This document shows positions 28,850-37,540 of a DNA stretch of 39,420 bases, one piece after another. How positions within the stretch are numbered: the first letter of the stretch is position 1; the number at the start of each line of letters is the position of its first letter. A program made the position numbers and the translations under genes. The DNA is from Gammaproteobacteria bacterium (GTDB taxonomy: Bacteria; Pseudomonadota; Gammaproteobacteria; Steroidobacterales; Steroidobacteraceae): NCBI GenBank assembly GCA_009692285.1, contig SHZO01000004.1, positions 1 through 39,420 of the forward strand, read 5' to 3'. The notes under the pieces are model-generated. The model was not told the DNA's origin. It saw only the letters and a program-made list of their open reading frames with translations, and did not search any database.

Positions 28850-28878
28850 TTGACTTTATCTGCATTAATATGCATAAT
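28850..28878 (+). promoter_or_regulatory. Candidate sigma70 promoter for argR/arginine operon
   Basis: TTGACT (28850-28855), 17-nt spacer, CATAAT (28873-28878). Confidence 0.55.
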
Positions 28879-28895
28879 TTACGCATTATTATGCA
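28861..28895. promoter_or_regulatory. Tandem ARG-box-like operator
   Basis: TGCAT-TAAT-ATGCA (28861-28874) and CGCAT-TATT-ATGCA (28882-28895), 21 bp apart, overlapping the promoter and argR start. Confidence 0.6.
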
Positions 28896-29343
28896 AGCAG
28901 ACCTACTCCAAACTGAGCGACGAACCGCTATTCTGCGTATCCTGCGCGGCTCATCTGTGCGCAAACAGACTGAAATCATGCGGCTTTTACGTGCTGAAGG
29001 GCATGAGGTCACACAATCATCCATAAGCCGAGATCTTCGAGATTTAGGGGTCCTTAAGGCCGCCGGTCGTTACCTGCCCCCCTCTGATGAATCGAGCCGG
29101 ACGCAGGGGAACTTTAGCTCACTGAAACAATTTGTCCGCGGAGTTGCCGCTGCAGGAGCCTGCCTGACAGTCCTTCGCACTACCATCGGTGCGGCGCAGA
29201 GCGTCGCCACTGCCATTGATAACGCGCAGTGGGCGGAGGTGGTCGGGACAATCTCCGGGGATGACACCATCTTTATAGCCACCGCCACCGGTGCAGCGCA
29301 GGTGGCCCTAGTGGCGCGCTTGCACGATCTTTTTAATCTTTAA
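28891..29343 (+). CDS. argR: Arginine repressor ArgR-family regulator
   Basis: N-terminal winged helix (TEIMRLLRAEGHEVTQSSISRDLRDLGVLKA) and C-terminal oligomerisation domain (VLRTTIGAAQSVATAIDNAQWAEVVGTISGDDTIFIAT). Start may be ATG 28891 or 28870. Confidence 0.92.
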   Translation: MQADLLQTERRTAILRILRGSSVRKQTEIMRLLRAEGHEVTQSSISRDLRDLGVLKAAGRYLPPSDESSRTQGNFSSLKQFVRGVAAAGACLTVLRTTIGAAQSVATAIDNAQWAEVVGTISGDDTIFIATATGAAQVALVARLHDLFNL

Positions 29344-29375: not shown

Positions 29376-30587
29376 ATGTTGAAACCGATTGTCCTTGCCT
29401 ACTCTGGCGGTCTAGATACTTCTTTCCTCGTGCCTTGGCTAAAGGAAAACCATCAGCGCCCGGTCATCACCGTCACAGTGGACACGGGGGGTATTGATCC
29501 GAGTGCAGCAAAACTGCTACATGAGCGCGCACTCGCACTCGGTGCTGTAGAGCATCACCAAATTGATGCGCGTACAGACTACTTTGATCAAGTTTTAAAG
29601 TTTTTGATAATGGGTAATGTGCGCCGCGGGCAGCTCTACCCTTTATGCGTTGGGGCAGAGCGTGTCATGCAAGCGCAGACTATTGCCTTGATGGCGCGCA
29701 AACTCGGCACTAGCAGTATTGCGCACGGCTGTACCGCAGCAGGCAATGATCAAGTACGCTTTGAGGTTGCATTACGTACTCTTGCCCCTGAGCTTGAAAT
29801 TATTGCCCCGGTGCGTGACAAGACTTTCAAACGACAAGAAGAATTAGATTTCTTGAAAGAACGTAATTTGCCCGTGCCACCCTTTGGGGCTGCTTATTCT
29901 ATTAATCGAGGTTTATGGGGCGTGACAATTGGTGGCAAAGAAACTTTAAACTCTGTCGGTTGTATTCCTGATGATGCGTGGGTGCTCTCTAAAGACGCCT
30001 TTAGCAAGCCCCATACACCACAGCGCCATGTGATTCACTTTGAACGAGGTATCCCCTGCGGAATTGACGGTAAGAGTCTCTCTCCTGTTGCAGTCATCGA
30101 GTTACTTGAAGCCCTTGCCGGACCCTATGGTATTGGCCGCGGCATACATTTAGGCGATACCATCATTGGTACCAAAGGACGCGTAGCCTTTGAAGCACCC
30201 GCCGCAGAAGTATTACTTAACGCACATCGTGAGCTTGAAAAACTCGTGCTCACAGGGCGCCAACAAAGAATTAAAGAAATGCTCGCCGGGCCTTATGGTG
30301 ATTGGGTACATGAAGGACAACTATTAGACCCTGTGTGCCGCGACATTGAGGCGTTCATGCTTCAATCGCAAGAACGTGTGACCGGAACAGTCAACGTATT
30401 GTTTCGACCTGGTGCAGTATTCATCGAAGGAGTGGAGTCTGCTTATTCATTAATGGCTGCCTCAAAAGGCGTCTATGGCGAATCAACAGGTGAGTGGACT
30501 GCCATCGATGCGGTTGGATTTTCACGCATTGTGGGACTAACCAGTATTTTTCATCGGCGAGCTGGAGAAAGGGATTCGAAGTCATGA
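29376..30587 (+). CDS. argG: Argininosuccinate synthase
   Basis: LAYSGGLDTSFLVPWL PP-loop, SSIAHGCTAAGNDQVRFEVA, YSINRGLWGVTIGGKETL. Confidence 0.95.
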   Translation: MLKPIVLAYSGGLDTSFLVPWLKENHQRPVITVTVDTGGIDPSAAKLLHERALALGAVEHHQIDARTDYFDQVLKFLIMGNVRRGQLYPLCVGAERVMQAQTIALMARKLGTSSIAHGCTAAGNDQVRFEVALRTLAPELEIIAPVRDKTFKRQEELDFLKERNLPVPPFGAAYSINRGLWGVTIGGKETLNSVGCIPDDAWVLSKDAFSKPHTPQRHVIHFERGIPCGIDGKSLSPVAVIELLEALAGPYGIGRGIHLGDTIIGTKGRVAFEAPAAEVLLNAHRELEKLVLTGRQQRIKEMLAGPYGDWVHEGQLLDPVCRDIEAFMLQSQERVTGTVNVLFRPGAVFIEGVESAYSLMAASKGVYGESTGEWTAIDAVGFSRIVGLTSIFHRRAGERDSKS

Positions 30588-31663
30588 GAACTATTGTTGT
30601 AGATAAAGTGGCCTCAGTCACACAGGCCTGCGCTCTAGGTCATGAAGTTCGTATCGCAACCGATAATTTACCTTCTGAAGAAGGCGTGGTTGTGGTGGTG
30701 GAAATCTTAAGTTCTAAATCTAACTACAACACCTTAGAGCTCACTAGCGGCCGCATGGCTAAGGTTAATAAAGGTGACATCGTGGTCGGTGCCCTCGGTC
30801 ATCGAAAAGCGTTATTTGGTTATTCCGGTCACGTCCCTATAACACTGAAATCGGGCGATATTATTCAAATGTTGAATATTGGCGGTGTCATGGGCCTGTG
30901 CGACTCTGCCAACCCGGATAAAGGGAAGCCCTTTGATTGCCGAGTGCTCGGTGTGGTGCTGACTTTTCCTTATTTAGGAGAGCGGATTGGTGTGCCAGCA
31001 CGAGCGGGATACCGAAAGTTAAATTATTCTGCCACGCTCGATACGCAAGGCATACCGGTCGTCGCACTCGCAGGCACTTGCATGGAAGCGGGGAAAACTG
31101 CCGCAGCCTGCGCAATGGTGAGTCGCATGCGACATCGCGGTCTTACTGTTGATGTATTTAAAGCAACCGGCGTGTCATTGCGACGCGATATTTTGGCCAT
31201 GGAAGATGCCGGTGCACGTCACTCTATGATTTTCACTGATCTTGGCATTATCTCCACCACACGTGAAGTAGGCCCCGCACTGACGCGTACTATGCTGACA
31301 GATCTTGCCGCCAAAAAACCAGATGTTATTGTCTTCGAATTGGGAGATGGTTTGCTTGGCACCTACGGCGTCGATTCAATACTAGAGTGTGAGGATATTC
31401 GTAAATCTATTACGGGTCTTGTACTCTCCGCGAACGATCCAGTAGCCGCGTGGGGCGGCGTCAAATTATTGCGTGAGCGTTTTCATGTCGAACCCTGCGC
31501 AGTCACTGGACCTGCTACTGACAACGCTGTAGGGGTTGAAATAATTCAACAGCAATTAAAAGTTGCCGCTTTCAATGCGCTCAGTGATGGGGTGGGGCTC
31601 GGCGATTGTGTCATTGAGGCCATCGGCTTAAGTGAAAAATTTCCAATTATCAGTAATGGTTAA
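30584..31663 (+). CDS. DUF1611-family P-loop protein; candidate N-acyl-glutamate synthase for this operon
   Basis: Walker-A-like VVALAGTCMEAGKTAAACAMV, FKATGVSLRRDILAMEDAGA, VFELGDGLLGTYGVDSIL. ATG 30584 overlaps the argG stop (ATGA). Confidence 0.8.
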   Translation: MRTIVVDKVASVTQACALGHEVRIATDNLPSEEGVVVVVEILSSKSNYNTLELTSGRMAKVNKGDIVVGALGHRKALFGYSGHVPITLKSGDIIQMLNIGGVMGLCDSANPDKGKPFDCRVLGVVLTFPYLGERIGVPARAGYRKLNYSATLDTQGIPVVALAGTCMEAGKTAAACAMVSRMRHRGLTVDVFKATGVSLRRDILAMEDAGARHSMIFTDLGIISTTREVGPALTRTMLTDLAAKKPDVIVFELGDGLLGTYGVDSILECEDIRKSITGLVLSANDPVAAWGGVKLLRERFHVEPCAVTGPATDNAVGVEIIQQQLKVAAFNALSDGVGLGDCVIEAIGLSEKFPIISNG

Positions 31664-31673
31664 GGAATCTGAC

Positions 31674-32756
31674 ATGAGCGCACAACCCATGACCAGCACT
31701 ATCAAAACTCCTGTCTTAGTGCTCGGTGGTACCGGCTATGTAGCAGGGGAAGTATTGCGCCTCGTATTAGGTCACCCTAATTTAAAATTAGCGGGCGTCC
31801 TCTCTGATTCATGCCCCGGTGAATTAGTGGCTTTATCATTCCCGCATCTCGTGGAAGTGTTGGGTGATACCTGCTTCAAATCACAAGCACAGATTGAGCA
31901 GCTCATTACAACCCTACCACAGAGCGCTGTTTTCTCAGCTGCGCCCCATGGGATCAGTGCCGCACTCATCGATCAACTCTTAAGAGTCGCTACAGCGGCA
32001 GGGACGCGCCCAAGCGTCGTGGATATCTCAGCAGATTATCGCTACGCCAATGCAGAAGATTATGAGGAAGTTTATAAGCATCCTCATGGCGCGCCAGCGC
32101 GCATCAAAGATTTTACCTGTGCACTTCCAGAGCATCTGTCAAAGATCACCACACCGCATGTGGCTCATCCAGGATGCTTTGCCAGCGCCACCTTACTGGC
32201 GAGCGTGCCGTTACTCGCTCTTAATTTAATTACTCCTACCTTATTCGTCAGTGGCGTCACAGGGAGCACCGGATCTGGAAGGACCCCAGTGGAGGGCACA
32301 CATCACCCGACGCGCCACAGCGATTTATACTCCTACAATGCGCTATCGCATCGGCATATTCCTGAAATTATCGCCTGCGCTGCCGCTGCTTCAGGGGTTC
32401 AAGCAGACTTTGCCTTTGTACCTCACTCAGGTCCATTTTCACGCGGTATTCATATCACAGTTCAGGCTACTTTAAAGAAACCAGTAGATAGCGCCGCCGT
32501 CATTGAAAAACTTCGGCAGTACTATCTGGACGCACCCTTTGTCCGTGTCTTCGAGACCGCCCCACACATCAAAAATGTTATCGCCAGCAACTATGCCCAC
32601 CTCAGTGCTACAGCTAATGGCCGTACACTCGCGGTGATGTGTGTGTTGGACAACCTAAATAAAGGAGCTGCAGGGGGCGCTATGCAATGGATGAATCGTT
32701 TGCTAGGTTTGCCTGAAACAGCAGGGCTTACTGCACCGGCTACTGGCTGGACCTGA
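31674..32756 (+). CDS. argC: N-acetyl-gamma-glutamyl-phosphate reductase (or acyl variant)
   Basis: VLVLGGTGYVAGEVLRLVLGHP, AHPGCFASATLLASVPLL (active-site Cys), SGVTGSTGSGRTP. Confidence 0.92.
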   Translation: MSAQPMTSTIKTPVLVLGGTGYVAGEVLRLVLGHPNLKLAGVLSDSCPGELVALSFPHLVEVLGDTCFKSQAQIEQLITTLPQSAVFSAAPHGISAALIDQLLRVATAAGTRPSVVDISADYRYANAEDYEEVYKHPHGAPARIKDFTCALPEHLSKITTPHVAHPGCFASATLLASVPLLALNLITPTLFVSGVTGSTGSGRTPVEGTHHPTRHSDLYSYNALSHRHIPEIIACAAAASGVQADFAFVPHSGPFSRGIHITVQATLKKPVDSAAVIEKLRQYYLDAPFVRVFETAPHIKNVIASNYAHLSATANGRTLAVMCVLDNLNKGAAGGAMQWMNRLLGLPETAGLTAPATGWT

Positions 32757-32772
32757 TTCGGATTTAAGAACT

Positions 32773-33909
32773 ATGACTCCTGCTGATCATCTCGCTCCCG
32801 TGTTTGCGCAATACCCCATCGAAGTCACCGATGCGCAGGGCGTATGGTTGCATACCAAAGATAATCGCCGAGTACTAGATTTATATGGTGGGCATGCAGT
32901 AGCTGCGCTGGGTTACAAACATGAGGCATGGACTCAAGCCGTGACTGCTCAAGCTAATGCGTGTAATTTTCAAAGCAACGCCGTCCCAATGGCGGTGCGT
33001 GTACGCGCAGCCACTAAGTTAATACGTTTCTCCGGTTCACATTTCGATAGCGTATTCTTTGTGAACTCAGGTGCTGAGGCCAACGAGAATGCGCTGCGCA
33101 TGGCATTCAAAATGACTCGACGTACCGGCATTGTGGCTATTGAAGGTGCCTTTCACGGTCGTACAGCCGCTGCAGGAGCAATCACTTGGGGTGCAGAAAA
33201 AAAATGGTATGAATTCCCTCGAGCACCATTTGATGTTTCCTACATCCCTAGACGAGATCTTAAAGCTATTGTCCATCAGGTGTGCGCAGAGACTGCGGCG
33301 GTCATAGTTGAACCCGTACAAGGCGTCGGTGGTGCATTTGATATGGGCACAGAGTTTTTAAGTGCGCTGCGTGCACGCTGTACGGCTGTTGGTGCATTAC
33401 TAATCTTTGATGAGGTACAAATTGGGATGGGCCGCAGTGGTCATCCATTTGCGGCTAACCTTTATGGCGTACTACCAGACATGATCACCACGGCCAAAGC
33501 ACTCGGTAATGGTTTTCCTTGTGGTGCATTATTAATGAGCCCTGAAGTCACGGCGTCATTAAAACTAGAAGGCTTAGGCACTACTTTTGGCGGGGGCCCT
33601 ATGGCCTGTGCAGCAATTGAAGCGGTGATTGATGCCATTGAGAATGAAGATCTTATGACTAATGTTCGGCGGGTAGCTCAATACATTCGTGACACCTGCA
33701 CCGTTGGGCCAGTCATAGGACATCAGGGGGCGGGGTTCTTACACGGACTAAAAACTTCGCAGCCTGCTAAAGAAATACAAGCTCTGCTTTTAGAGCGCAA
33801 CATACTGACTGGGACCAGCGGCGACCCCAATGTAGTGCGTCTGCTACCTCCTTATATCCTCAAGGAAAAACATGTCGATCTTCTTCGAGAGGCGTTGCAG
33901 TCAATATGA
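32773..33909 (+). CDS. argD: Acetylornithine aminotransferase (class III PLP)
   Basis: VLDLYGGHAVAALGY, NSGAEANENALRMA, FHGRTAAAGAIT, LIFDEVQIGMGRSG, TTAKALGNGFPCGALL. Confidence 0.93.
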   Translation: MTPADHLAPVFAQYPIEVTDAQGVWLHTKDNRRVLDLYGGHAVAALGYKHEAWTQAVTAQANACNFQSNAVPMAVRVRAATKLIRFSGSHFDSVFFVNSGAEANENALRMAFKMTRRTGIVAIEGAFHGRTAAAGAITWGAEKKWYEFPRAPFDVSYIPRRDLKAIVHQVCAETAAVIVEPVQGVGGAFDMGTEFLSALRARCTAVGALLIFDEVQIGMGRSGHPFAANLYGVLPDMITTAKALGNGFPCGALLMSPEVTASLKLEGLGTTFGGGPMACAAIEAVIDAIENEDLMTNVRRVAQYIRDTCTVGPVIGHQGAGFLHGLKTSQPAKEIQALLLERNILTGTSGDPNVVRLLPPYILKEKHVDLLREALQSI

Positions 33910-34904
33910 AAAACTTCCTCGACCTGGCTGATTTTAAACGCGAGGAGATTCTAGATCTGCTGGCTCTTGCGCGGCACTTAGATAAACACCCTGAGCCTAA
34001 AGCATTGATTGGTAAAATCTTAGGCTTAATATTTTTTAACCCATCTCTGCGCACACTTGCGTCATTTCAAGTAGCTATGATGCGCTTAGGAGGCTCATCT
34101 TATGTCATTACACCGGGCCAAAGTACGTGGTTGCTCGAAACACGTCACGGCGAGGTAATGAATGAAGCTGCTGCAGAGCATATTAATGAAGGCTTGCCGG
34201 TACTAGCCTCTTATTGTGATGCACTTGGTATCCGCTCTTTTCCAGAAGGCAAAGATTTAGCTCATGATTTAGCAGAAACTACTTTTAAGGCGATGTCCTC
34301 TGTCATTAATAAACCACTGATCAATATGGAATCAGCTACAAGCCATCCTTGCCAATCTTTGGCCGACTGGAAAACCATGGATGATTTAAAAATTCCACAG
34401 CGCAGTAAGTTTGTTCTAAGTTGGGCAAATCACCCACGCAGCACCCCGATTGCTGTACCAGCATCAACGGTACACATGGCAGCACAGCGCGGCATGGAGG
34501 TAGTTGTACTACGTCCAGAGGGTTTTGCGCTGCCTAAGGAAATCATGCAAAAAGCACAATTCGCAGCAGCTACCTCAGGAGGTAGCGTACGCGAGAGCAG
34601 TGACCGTAATGAAGCCCTTCAAGGAGCCCAGGTGGTTTACGCCAAAGAATGGGGCTCTACTACCCACTACGGCAATGCGGAGAAAGATAGCGTCTTACGT
34701 GCTAACTTAAATGATTGGTGCCTCACGGAAAGTTGGTTTTCCAATTCACAGCCCGACTGTAAATTTATGCACTGCTTGCCCGTACGGCGCAACGTTGCTG
34801 TAGCGGATGAAATCCTTGATGGCTCGCGCAGCGTCGTACTGCAAGAAGCTCATAACCGCTTGCCTGTCCAAATGGCAGTCTTACATCGCCTGCTTGCATC
34901 CTAA
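33906..34904 (+). CDS. argF': N-acylornithine carbamoyltransferase (acetyl/succinylornithine class, ArgF')
   Basis: FFNPSLRTLASFQ, WLLETRHGEVMNEAAAEHINEGLPVLASYCDALGIRSFP, SHPCQSLADW, FMHCLPVRRNVAVADEIL; resembles AOTCase/SOTCase rather than canonical OTCase. Confidence 0.88.
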   Translation: MKNFLDLADFKREEILDLLALARHLDKHPEPKALIGKILGLIFFNPSLRTLASFQVAMMRLGGSSYVITPGQSTWLLETRHGEVMNEAAAEHINEGLPVLASYCDALGIRSFPEGKDLAHDLAETTFKAMSSVINKPLINMESATSHPCQSLADWKTMDDLKIPQRSKFVLSWANHPRSTPIAVPASTVHMAAQRGMEVVVLRPEGFALPKEIMQKAQFAAATSGGSVRESSDRNEALQGAQVVYAKEWGSTTHYGNAEKDSVLRANLNDWCLTESWFSNSQPDCKFMHCLPVRRNVAVADEILDGSRSVVLQEAHNRLPVQMAVLHRLLAS

Positions 34905-34929: not shown

Positions 34930-35880
34930 ATGATTACCCACCGAACTGACTCTGCTGCTGTAATTCACGCGCTGCGCAGCGCTGCTCCCTATATTCGTCT
35001 TTACAAAGGAAAAACTTTTGTAATTAAAGCGGGTGGTGGTGTTTTTGGTGATCCAGCGGCCACGCGCGCTCTGATTGAGCAAATAGCAGTACTGCATCAC
35101 TTTGGTATTCGTGTGGTATTTGTTCATGGAGGTGGTCCACAACTTACGCAAGTCACTGAACAACTTGGCGTACCCACTCAAATCATTGAAGGCCGCCGGG
35201 TAACTGATGCGCGCTCTATCGATGCTACTGCTATGGTACTCAGTGGTCTGATTAATACGCGCATTCTTGCGGTCTGCCGTGAGCTTGAAATCCCTGCCAT
35301 TGGCATCAGTGGTGTCGATGCCGGGCTAGTACAAGCACACAAGCGCTCACCCGTTAAATTGCAAAGTAGCGACGCGACCGTAGATTATGGTTTTGTGGGT
35401 GACATCGACTATATCGATACAGATGTTTTAAAAAAATTACTAGATAACGGTTTGATGCCTGTAATTTCGCCTCTCTCTAGCGATGATCAGGGTACGTTAT
35501 TAAATATCAATGCCGATACCGTGGCTGCAGCTATTGGCGCAGCCCTGAGTGCAGAGAAGCTGATTCTATGTACCGGTGCGCCAGGTATTTTAGAAAGACT
35601 TGAAGATCCTACTTCAATTATTTCTTTTACAGATCTAGCTGGCATTAAACGACTACGCAAAGAAATGCGTATAAATGATGGAATGCTACCTAAAGCAACG
35701 GCTATTGAAGCAGCCATACAAGGGGGGGTGCGACGCGTTCACGTTATTTCTTATAAAACTGTGGATGGAATCTTAGCGGAGGTCTTCACTAATGAGGGCA
35801 CCGGTACTTTAATTGTCGCAGATACCAAAGCACTCGCTCCCGCTGAATTAGCTGCGGGAAACAAAGGAGGTAAAACATGA
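34930..35880 (+). CDS. argB: Acetylglutamate kinase
   Basis: FVIKAGGGVFGD, VVFVHGGGPQLTQVTEQLG, ISGVDAGLVQAHKR, INADTVAAAIGAAL. Likely start ATG 34930. Confidence 0.94.
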   Translation: MITHRTDSAAVIHALRSAAPYIRLYKGKTFVIKAGGGVFGDPAATRALIEQIAVLHHFGIRVVFVHGGGPQLTQVTEQLGVPTQIIEGRRVTDARSIDATAMVLSGLINTRILAVCRELEIPAIGISGVDAGLVQAHKRSPVKLQSSDATVDYGFVGDIDYIDTDVLKKLLDNGLMPVISPLSSDDQGTLLNINADTVAAAIGAALSAEKLILCTGAPGILERLEDPTSIISFTDLAGIKRLRKEMRINDGMLPKATAIEAAIQGGVRRVHVISYKTVDGILAEVFTNEGTGTLIVADTKALAPAELAAGNKGGKT

Positions 35881-37076
35881 CGCGCTTATGGGACAAAGGC
35901 GCTCCTCTGGATGAGCGTGTACTTGCCTATACAGCCGGCGAGGACTACACCTTGGATGAACGCTTGGTCTCCTATGATGTTCAAGCCTCGATTGCCCATG
36001 CACAAATGTTGCACGCACAATCTTTGCTCTCTAAAGCAGACCTCTTAGCTATCAAAGAAGGTCTCGAGGCTCTAGCTGCGGCACATGCGCTTGGGCAATG
36101 GACCATAGAACTGGCCGATGAAGATGGTCAAACTGCTTTGGAGCGTCGACTCATCGCAAAAATTGGTGTCCCTGGTGGCCGAGTTCATTTGGGTCGCTCA
36201 CGGAACGACCAAGTCCTAACAGCACTTCGTTTGTATTTGCGCGATGCGCTTGTAGAAGTAGCTCAGGGGGCGAGCGATGTAGCAGCAGCACTCGATCGGC
36301 TCGATGCGCGCCAAGGGACACTCGCCTTACCGGGCTACACACACATGCAGCAAGCTATGCCTAGTTCGGTAAGTCTGTGGGCTCAGGGTTTTGCAGCAGA
36401 ATTACGCGATGATGCACAAGGCTTAACCGGTGCCGAGCGGCGCCTGAGTCGTAGCCCCTTAGGTTCTGCAGCAGGTTATGGCACCCCTGGCTTACCTATT
36501 GATCGCACAGCTACGCAACAATCACTTAAGTTTAATTCGGTACAAACTCCGGTGACTTCAGTACAGCTCTCACGTGGCAAGGCAGAAGCGCAGGTACTTT
36601 TTGAGATTACGCTACTGATGCAAGATCTAGGACGCTTCGCTGCAGACGTACTTTTGTTCTATACGCAAGAATTCGCGTTTATAAGTCTGCCCGATGCATT
36701 TACTACTGGCTCATCGATCATGCCGCAAAAAAGAAACCCTGATATTTTTGAGTTACTACGTGGAAGAACGGCAACAGCTCAGGCATGTTTGTTGGAGGCA
36801 TTAAGTATCTTCGCTAAACTTCCCTCAGGATACCAGCGCGATCTGCAGTTATTAAAACAGCCTCTTTTCAGGGGCATTGATCTTGCATTAGCAAGCACTG
36901 CAATCTTGGTGCCGGCGATTGATGCCATTACTTTTCAGCCTGAAAAAATTAGGCTCGATCCAACTATTCATGCAGCTGAGCGCGCCAATGAAATTGTAGT
37001 TAAAGAAGGTATTTCTTTTCGCGCAGCCTACCAGCGTATTAGCGCAGCACTGGCCACAGAGAAAAATAGCACTTGA
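35877..37076 (+). CDS. argH: Argininosuccinate lyase
   Basis: VHLGRSRNDQVLTALRLYLRD, PGYTHMQQAMP, GSSIMPQKRNPDIFELLRG. ATGA overlap with argB. Confidence 0.96.
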   Translation: MTRLWDKGAPLDERVLAYTAGEDYTLDERLVSYDVQASIAHAQMLHAQSLLSKADLLAIKEGLEALAAAHALGQWTIELADEDGQTALERRLIAKIGVPGGRVHLGRSRNDQVLTALRLYLRDALVEVAQGASDVAAALDRLDARQGTLALPGYTHMQQAMPSSVSLWAQGFAAELRDDAQGLTGAERRLSRSPLGSAAGYGTPGLPIDRTATQQSLKFNSVQTPVTSVQLSRGKAEAQVLFEITLLMQDLGRFAADVLLFYTQEFAFISLPDAFTTGSSIMPQKRNPDIFELLRGRTATAQACLLEALSIFAKLPSGYQRDLQLLKQPLFRGIDLALASTAILVPAIDAITFQPEKIRLDPTIHAAERANEIVVKEGISFRAAYQRISAALATEKNST

Positions 37077-37540
37077 AAACCTCAGCTGAAAAAAACAATA
37101 GGTCTCCTATTTGGCGCCCAGAGGTAACTCTAGAGTTATGTAATGCGATGAACGAAGGCACAATGATGCAGCACATCGGCCTAGTATTTATTGAGCTTGG
37201 CGAAAATTTTCTTCGCTGTACTATGCCGGTTTCAGAGCGAACATGCCAACCGATGCGAATATTGCATGGCGGCGCATCAGTAGTTTTAGCCGAAACATTA
37301 GCGAGTGCTGCAGCTTTTTGTATTATCGATATTAATAAATACATCTGCGTAGGCCAAGAAATAAATGCTAATCATTTACGCTCTGCAGCACTTGGTACTA
37401 TTGTAGAAGGAACAACTAGACCCTTTCATATTGGCTCACGAAGTCAAGTTTGGGGCATCGAGATTGTCAATGAACGCAAAGAATTAGTCTGCGTGTCCCG
37501 CATTACCCTAGCGGTCATTAATCGTCCTACAAAATTATGA
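37073..37540 (+). CDS. PaaI-like hotdog-fold thioesterase
   Basis: HIGLVFIELGENFLRCTMPVSERTCQPMRILHGGASVVLAETLAS...GQEINANHLRSA. TTG start overlapping the argH stop. Confidence 0.85.
   Translation: MKTSAEKNNRSPIWRPEVTLELCNAMNEGTMMQHIGLVFIELGENFLRCTMPVSERTCQPMRILHGGASVVLAETLASAAAFCIIDINKYICVGQEINANHLRSAALGTIVEGTTRPFHIGSRSQVWGIEIVNERKELVCVSRITLAVINRPTKL

Follow-up and report, generated by a model that had tools for sequence, protein, structure and literature searches.

We analysed a stretch of 39,420 nucleotides (hereafter, the window) from contig SHZO01000004.1 of a Steroidobacteraceae metagenome-assembled genome (GCA_009692285.1). The window carries an arginine operon in the order argR-argG-X-argC-argD-argF'-argB-argH, in which X is a translationally coupled gene (Table 1). 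The reading frame of X is open throughout; its ATG lies within the argG stop codon, with an ATGA overlap (GTCATGAGA), and 10 nt separate its own stop codon from the argC start. A preliminary description of this DNA had placed X in this way and had regarded it as embedded between argG and argC-argD-argF'-argB-argH. The frame coordinates bore out the placement, and Pfam and NCBIfam matches verified the neighbours. Comparison with the copy of a congener revealed 52/22/226 differences at codon positions 1/2/3, which marks X as a genuine gene subject to strong purifying selection. The argB start was picked from a GGAGG motif and the length of its relatives; the frame also opens at 34807. Promoter and terminator predictions gave counts not above those in shuffled sequence. 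The 4HBT thioesterase gene is found 3' of argH in 30 of the 80 loci that we fetched; in two genomes without X (G028 and G039), a homologue (L080:10996-11439; L081:6929-7357) lies directly 3' of an extra knotted transcarbamylase, whose specificity sites are A/K-P-S.

Table 1. Genes and sites of the arginine operon, in window positions
Feature	Position	Strand	Remarks
argR, arginine repressor	28870..29343	+	Pfam PF01316/PF02863; first gene of the conserved block
argG, argininosuccinate synthase	29376..30587	+	TIGR00032 above cut-off
gene X	30584..31663	+	359 aa; predicted N-succinyl-L-glutamate synthase, non-GNAT, with BioD-like P-loop domain and novel N-terminal beta domain
P-loop of X, residues 164-172 (GTCMEAGKT)	31073..31099	+	K171 and T172 unchanged across X and its remote homologues
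argC, N-acyl-gamma-glutamyl-phosphate reductase	31674..32756	+	TIGR01850 above cut-off
argD, N-acylornithine aminotransferase	32773..33909	+	PF00202; best NCBIfam match TIGR00707
argF', knotted N-acylornithine carbamoyltransferase, predicted succinyl type (SOTCase)	33906..34904	+	NF003384 above cut-off
ArgF' Ala90 codon (AOTCase Glu92 site)	34173..34175	+	succinyl-type residue
ArgF' Pro181 codon (AOTCase Asn185 site)	34446..34448	+	succinyl-type residue
ArgF' Ala298 codon (AOTCase Lys302 site)	34797..34799	+	not acetyl-type Lys; outside the published V/I/E list
argB, N-acylglutamate kinase	34930..35880	+	TIGR00761 above cut-off; kinase only, NAT domain absent
argH, argininosuccinate lyase	35877..37076	+	399 aa; TIGR00838 above cut-off; without C-terminal GNAT extension
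4HBT hotdog thioesterase, coupled to argH	37073..37540	+	PF03061

We examined the family to which X belongs. It had earlier been labelled a DUF1611 protein, a label that had to be dropped. The match of X to the Pfam DUF1611 model (PF07755) reached 17.4 bits (E=0.003), below the gathering cut-off of 25 bits, and covered residues 155-196, which is the P-loop region only. The N-terminal domain is a different one: the Rossmann-like DUF1611_N domain (PF17396), present in a true DUF1611 protein (L170), had no match in X. Moreover, hhalign comparison with two true DUF1611 proteins of the same order returned probabilities of 2.4% and 3.4%, and true DUF1611 genes are encoded separately in sister genomes (E about 1e-70). 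On these grounds, we rejected DUF1611 membership. The family of X has no Pfam or NCBIfam model, neither collection matched a GNAT domain in X, and a PDB sequence search with X alone returned nothing.

We then relied on structure prediction. A first model, based on 14 close orthologues, had a poor N-terminus (pLDDT 75) and was replaced by a model based on 35 sequences (pLDDT 95, pTM 0.91). In the latter, the N-terminal ~150 residues form a beta domain, and the C-terminal half adopts a SIMIBI P-loop fold, with dethiobiotin synthetases (BioD) at ranks 1-4 of the structural matches (E about 1e-6; TM 0.34-0.38 on X and 0.52-0.59 on BioD). The DUF1611 structure 2obn ranked 20th (TM 0.39-0.41), and SRP and FleN, of the SIMIBI GTPase and regulator types, were also among the matches. 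Those listed span about 200-240 columns, so that none was seen to match X over its whole length. Homologues with as little as 24-30% identity still retain G170, K171, T172, K193, T195, G196, D202, D219 and E252 of X without exception. In BioD, the counterpart site comprises the P-loop Lys/Thr, Lys37, Asp54 and Glu115. By this analogy, the invariant residues of X look like an intact Mg-ATP carboxylate-activating site, which would allow X to act as an ATP-dependent ligase, a CoA donor being equally conceivable.

We analysed the distribution of X and its gene neighbourhood. Of 40 genomes from the order, 31 contain a full-length orthologue; 24 of the 40 belong to the genus of the window, and X accompanied by argG occurs in eight families of the order. 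A contig scan of species-level genomes identified 419 places related to X, the named records being mainly from Steroidobacteraceae, Nevskiaceae and unclassified gammaproteobacterial metagenome-assembled genomes, together with the cultured Povalibacter uvarum. Metagenome-assembled records titled Klebsiella pneumoniae or Janthinobacterium lividum (L090, L098, L161) also carry the operon, with X at 77-87% identity; these titles are probably misassigned. A neighbour survey, proposed earlier for DUF1611 and run here for X, placed X directly after argG in 80 of 80 fetched loci and before argC wherever the contig continues. argR is kept upstream of argG in most loci, and the complete order seen in the window is kept across the families whose contigs cover the region.

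Outside the order, 291 genomes sampled from the class included three (G082, G162 and G286), from two other families, that carry X at ~44% identity. All three retain the argG-X-argC trio, within a rearranged operon (argD-argF'-argB-argH-argG-X-argC) in G082 and G162 and on a short contig in G286. In G583, which belongs to another class, argR, X, argC and argB form a compact cluster in that order (L200:4953-8098); its X is 69% identical, which suggests horizontal transfer. The carbamoyltransferase of G583 is an ordinary ornithine carbamoyltransferase encoded elsewhere in the genome. This association of X with argC and argB, apart from the carbamoyltransferase, points to X acting at the outset of the pathway, alongside the genes that use acyl-glutamate. 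The conservation of X is similar to that of the core arginine enzymes, and its pairwise distances co-vary with theirs (r 0.90-0.96).

Next, we searched for known enzymes of the first arginine step. The operon was earlier said to lack ArgA, ArgJ and any ArgA fusion, and this holds: ArgB consists of the kinase alone, and ArgH lacks a GNAT tail, which also rules out an ArgH-fused N-acetylglutamate synthase (NAGS). ArgJ (PF01960) had no match in X, in the 40 genomes of the order or in 5 further genomes with X. ArgA (TIGR01890) gave nothing over cut-off in genomes with X, near-complete ones included, the sub-threshold matches being the ArgB kinase or a weak lone GNAT. Thus, the genome-wide search that the preliminary description had called for returned no ArgJ or complete ArgA in the window genome and 39 relatives; as the window genome is only 83% complete, the absence rests on the relatives. 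These whole-genome searches covered ArgA, ArgJ and the PF04768 type of NAGS, with the GNAT-type ArgA2 (BT3761/Cabys_1732) outside their scope. A Bacteroidetes plasmid region that we examined contained a carbamoyltransferase, and argA2 was not found there. In G029, a genome with X, the M20 genes encode DapE and one further peptidase, which makes ArgA3, the M20-type NAGS (PMC9026213), unlikely there. The Steroidobacter papers that we consulted document no arginine prototrophy.

The Xanthomonas-type NAT domain (PF04768) was absent from the genomes of the order that carry X and was present, as a NAGS/kinase fusion, in exactly 6 of the 40. X was thus found in 31 genomes, the fusion in 6, both in 0 and neither in 3, where genomes counted as lacking X have no orthologue at the level of similarity seen in the operon. 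The three genomes with neither also had no ArgB match, so the arginine pathway is probably absent there, and within the set ArgB is always accompanied by X or the fusion, never by both. At the family level, eight families with X and six with the fusion showed zero overlap (Fisher p=0.0003, uncorrected for phylogeny), an exclusivity that may partly reflect phylogeny within the order.

To predict the acyl group, we inspected the specificity residues of ArgF'. Acetyl-type carbamoyltransferases have Glu92, Asn185 and Lys302, whereas succinyl-type enzymes have A/S/P/V/Q, P and V/I/E at these sites (PMC4581275); GapMind likewise applied the rule for the first site (site 90) to Bacteroidetes (PMC7311316). 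At the sites of Xanthomonas AOTCase E92, N185 and K302, the window ArgF' has A90, P181 and A298, in agreement with the succinyl rule at two of three sites. The other genomes of the order with X have A-P-A or A-P-V, and the 67 loci scored in the contig scan comprised 65 with A-P-A, one with A-P-V and one in which the third site was unaligned. In distant families with X, ArgF' has P-P-E and V-P-E, which, like A-P-V in relatives, are succinyl-type at all three sites; a Bacteroides control carbamoyltransferase has P-P-I. All six NAGS/kinase genomes have the acetyl-type E-N-K or E-N-Q in the ArgF' of their arginine cluster. Since the rule separates genomes with X from those with the fusion, succinylated intermediates are predicted to accompany X, and the acyl group is probably succinyl rather than acetyl. 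The ordinary ornithine carbamoyltransferase of G583 means that succinyl specificity may not be universal among genomes with X.

The operon with X lacks a deacylase as well as a known synthase, so gene context alone cannot tell which gap X fills. In the acetyl-type cluster examined (G028, L082), argE' (PRK08737) adjoins the NAGS/kinase fusion. No dedicated N-succinylcitrulline desuccinylase was found in the operon with X, and the M20 proteins found in G029 (1.6 Mb, 98% complete) were DapE and a 480-aa peptidase of the PRK09133 type. DapE already takes succinyl off an amino acid derivative, which makes its sharing with arginine synthesis an economical hypothesis and suggests that DapE removes the succinyl group in genomes with X.

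We also examined remote homologues of X. A subtype with the P-loop GTSMSAGKTT belongs to a conserved set of three genes, the other two encoding an M20 peptidase and a flavin-reductase-like protein (L029:5911-8749; L032:5932-8776). On the Priestia megaterium plasmid NZ_CP085446, a remote homologue (L241:5899-6960) is clustered with genes for an OTC, two ATP-grasp proteins, the halves of a TPP enzyme, an M20 peptidase and a PEP-mutase-family protein, suggesting a phosphonate natural product pathway. The pairing of remote homologues with M20 enzymes would fit acyl protection followed by deprotection. Another subtype (GTSMNAGKTTT) is located directly 5' of an ABC transporter gene (L195:5845-8606; L242:5926-8696); its Sulfitobacter copy is annotated as DUF1611.

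Judging from sequence and predicted structure, we consider it likely that X is a non-GNAT N-succinyl-L-glutamate synthase and the first arginine enzyme in these bacteria. In this scheme, X would attach an acyl group, most likely succinate, to the alpha-amino nitrogen of L-glutamate, yielding N-succinyl-L-glutamate. ArgB, ArgC and ArgD would then act on succinylated intermediates, the succinyl-type ArgF' would produce N-succinylcitrulline, a desuccinylase, probably the DapE common to lysine synthesis, would free citrulline, and ArgG and ArgH would complete arginine synthesis. The acyl donor would likely be either succinyl-CoA or succinate that ATP has converted to an acyl phosphate, in the manner of BioD-fold ligases. 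The view that X replaces ArgA as an N-acyl-L-glutamate synthase was put forward in the preliminary description; synteny, exclusivity and the absence of ArgA and ArgJ in near-complete relatives strongly support it, without the family label on which it had leaned, and the choice between acetyl and succinyl, left open there, now tends to succinyl through the ArgF' residues. More tentatively, X might define a new class of N-acyl-amino-acid synthases as an ATP-dependent succinate:L-glutamate ligase that proceeds via succinyl phosphate in a BioD-type site, in which case one DapE would serve both lysine and arginine, and the remote homologues would share the protect/deprotect chemistry; we regard this fuller scheme as possible but doubtful. 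Complementation of an E. coli argA mutant may fail even with a working X, because E. coli ArgB and ArgE may refuse succinylated intermediates.

X could instead be the first-step enzyme with N-acetyl-L-glutamate as its product, the ArgF' residues being misleading. This would agree with the third ArgF' site, where the window and its closest relatives have alanine and not V, I or E, and with the co-occurrence of X with an ordinary ornithine carbamoyltransferase in G583. We nevertheless hold it unlikely, given that the first two sites are succinyl-type wherever scored, up to the P-P-E and V-P-E of distant families, that all NAGS/kinase genomes are acetyl-type at those sites, that GapMind relied on the same site-90 rule for Bacteroidetes, and that no argE'-type acetyl deacetylase is found among the M20 genes of G029.

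The two other alternatives take X away from the first step. It seems quite improbable that X is an accessory or regulatory P-loop protein, with step 1 performed by an uncharacterised GNAT or a moonlighting DapD: exclusivity with the NAGS/kinase fusion and conservation equal to that of core enzymes both fit an enzyme, and the neighbours of remote homologues include amino-acid ligation and M20 genes, even though SIMIBI proteins that resemble X in fold include GTPases and regulators (SRP, FleN), and the sequence searches covered ArgA, ArgJ and PF04768, a set to which ArgA2-type GNAT proteins do not belong. X might also be the missing N-succinylcitrulline desuccinylase, paired with an unrecognised synthase elsewhere, such as a GNAT; its operon has neither synthase nor deacylase, whereas the acetyl-type cluster of G028 has both. 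Such a role is very hard to reconcile with the intact P-loop and a fold that is BioD-like and not that of a hydrolase, with the clustering of X in G583 with argC-argB and not with the carbamoyltransferase, with remote homologues that adjoin M20 deacylase-type genes instead of replacing them, and with the availability of DapE.

If X is indeed an N-succinyl-L-glutamate synthase, the arginine-pathway gap would be closed in hundreds of Steroidobacterales-type genomes, and the succinylated pathway, described for Bacteroidetes, would extend to Proteobacteria. A non-GNAT fold would join the acyl-glutamate synthases, a P-loop family without a Pfam or NCBIfam model would gain its first functional handle, and automatic auxotrophy predictions, together with the acetylornithine carbamoyltransferase label of argF', would be corrected in this group. 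In the literature that we searched (subscription papers and preprints aside), neither a P-loop family acting at this step nor a succinyl pathway in these bacteria was described. What is new is the protein family of X; the biosynthetic step is already known.

Known replacements of ArgA are the GNAT protein ArgA2 of Bacteroidetes and the M20-like ArgA3 of Veillonella and Dialister (PMC9026213). Cabys_1732 of Caldithrix abyssi is a GNAT-type synthase (PMC5317091), to which BT3761 is >50% identical (PMC7311316). Like X, these ArgA2 proteins (ArgA2/BT3761/Cabys_1732; N-succinyl- or N-acetylglutamate synthases) are assigned to the same inferred step, are encoded in an arginine operon, and are accompanied by a succinyl-type carbamoyltransferase (for X, a predicted one) in the absence of ArgA and ArgJ. 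However, ArgA2 is a GNAT protein, whereas X combines a BioD-like P-loop domain with a different N-terminal domain and occurs in Gammaproteobacteria and one genome of another class.

BioD is the best structural match of X and shares its P-loop pattern, and its ATP-dependent carboxylate chemistry serves as a mechanistic model; yet the two proteins are only 12-15% identical, X has an additional N-terminal domain of ~150 residues, and the pathways differ. DUF1611/DgcN proteins resemble X in their distantly similar P-loop domain, similar length and proposed glutamate N-acylation, DgcN having N-acetyltransferase activity with acetyl-CoA. They differ in their P-loop (GTDCxVGK, against GTCMEAGKT in X) and in the DUF1611_N Rossmann domain, which X lacks. 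DUF1611/DgcN is placed in D-glutamate catabolism, as cited in PMC12363236. Finally, sister families of the order carry out the corresponding step with the Xanthomonas-type NAGS/kinase fusion (PF04768), which has no homology to X and belongs to an acetyl pathway with an AOTCase-type ArgF'.
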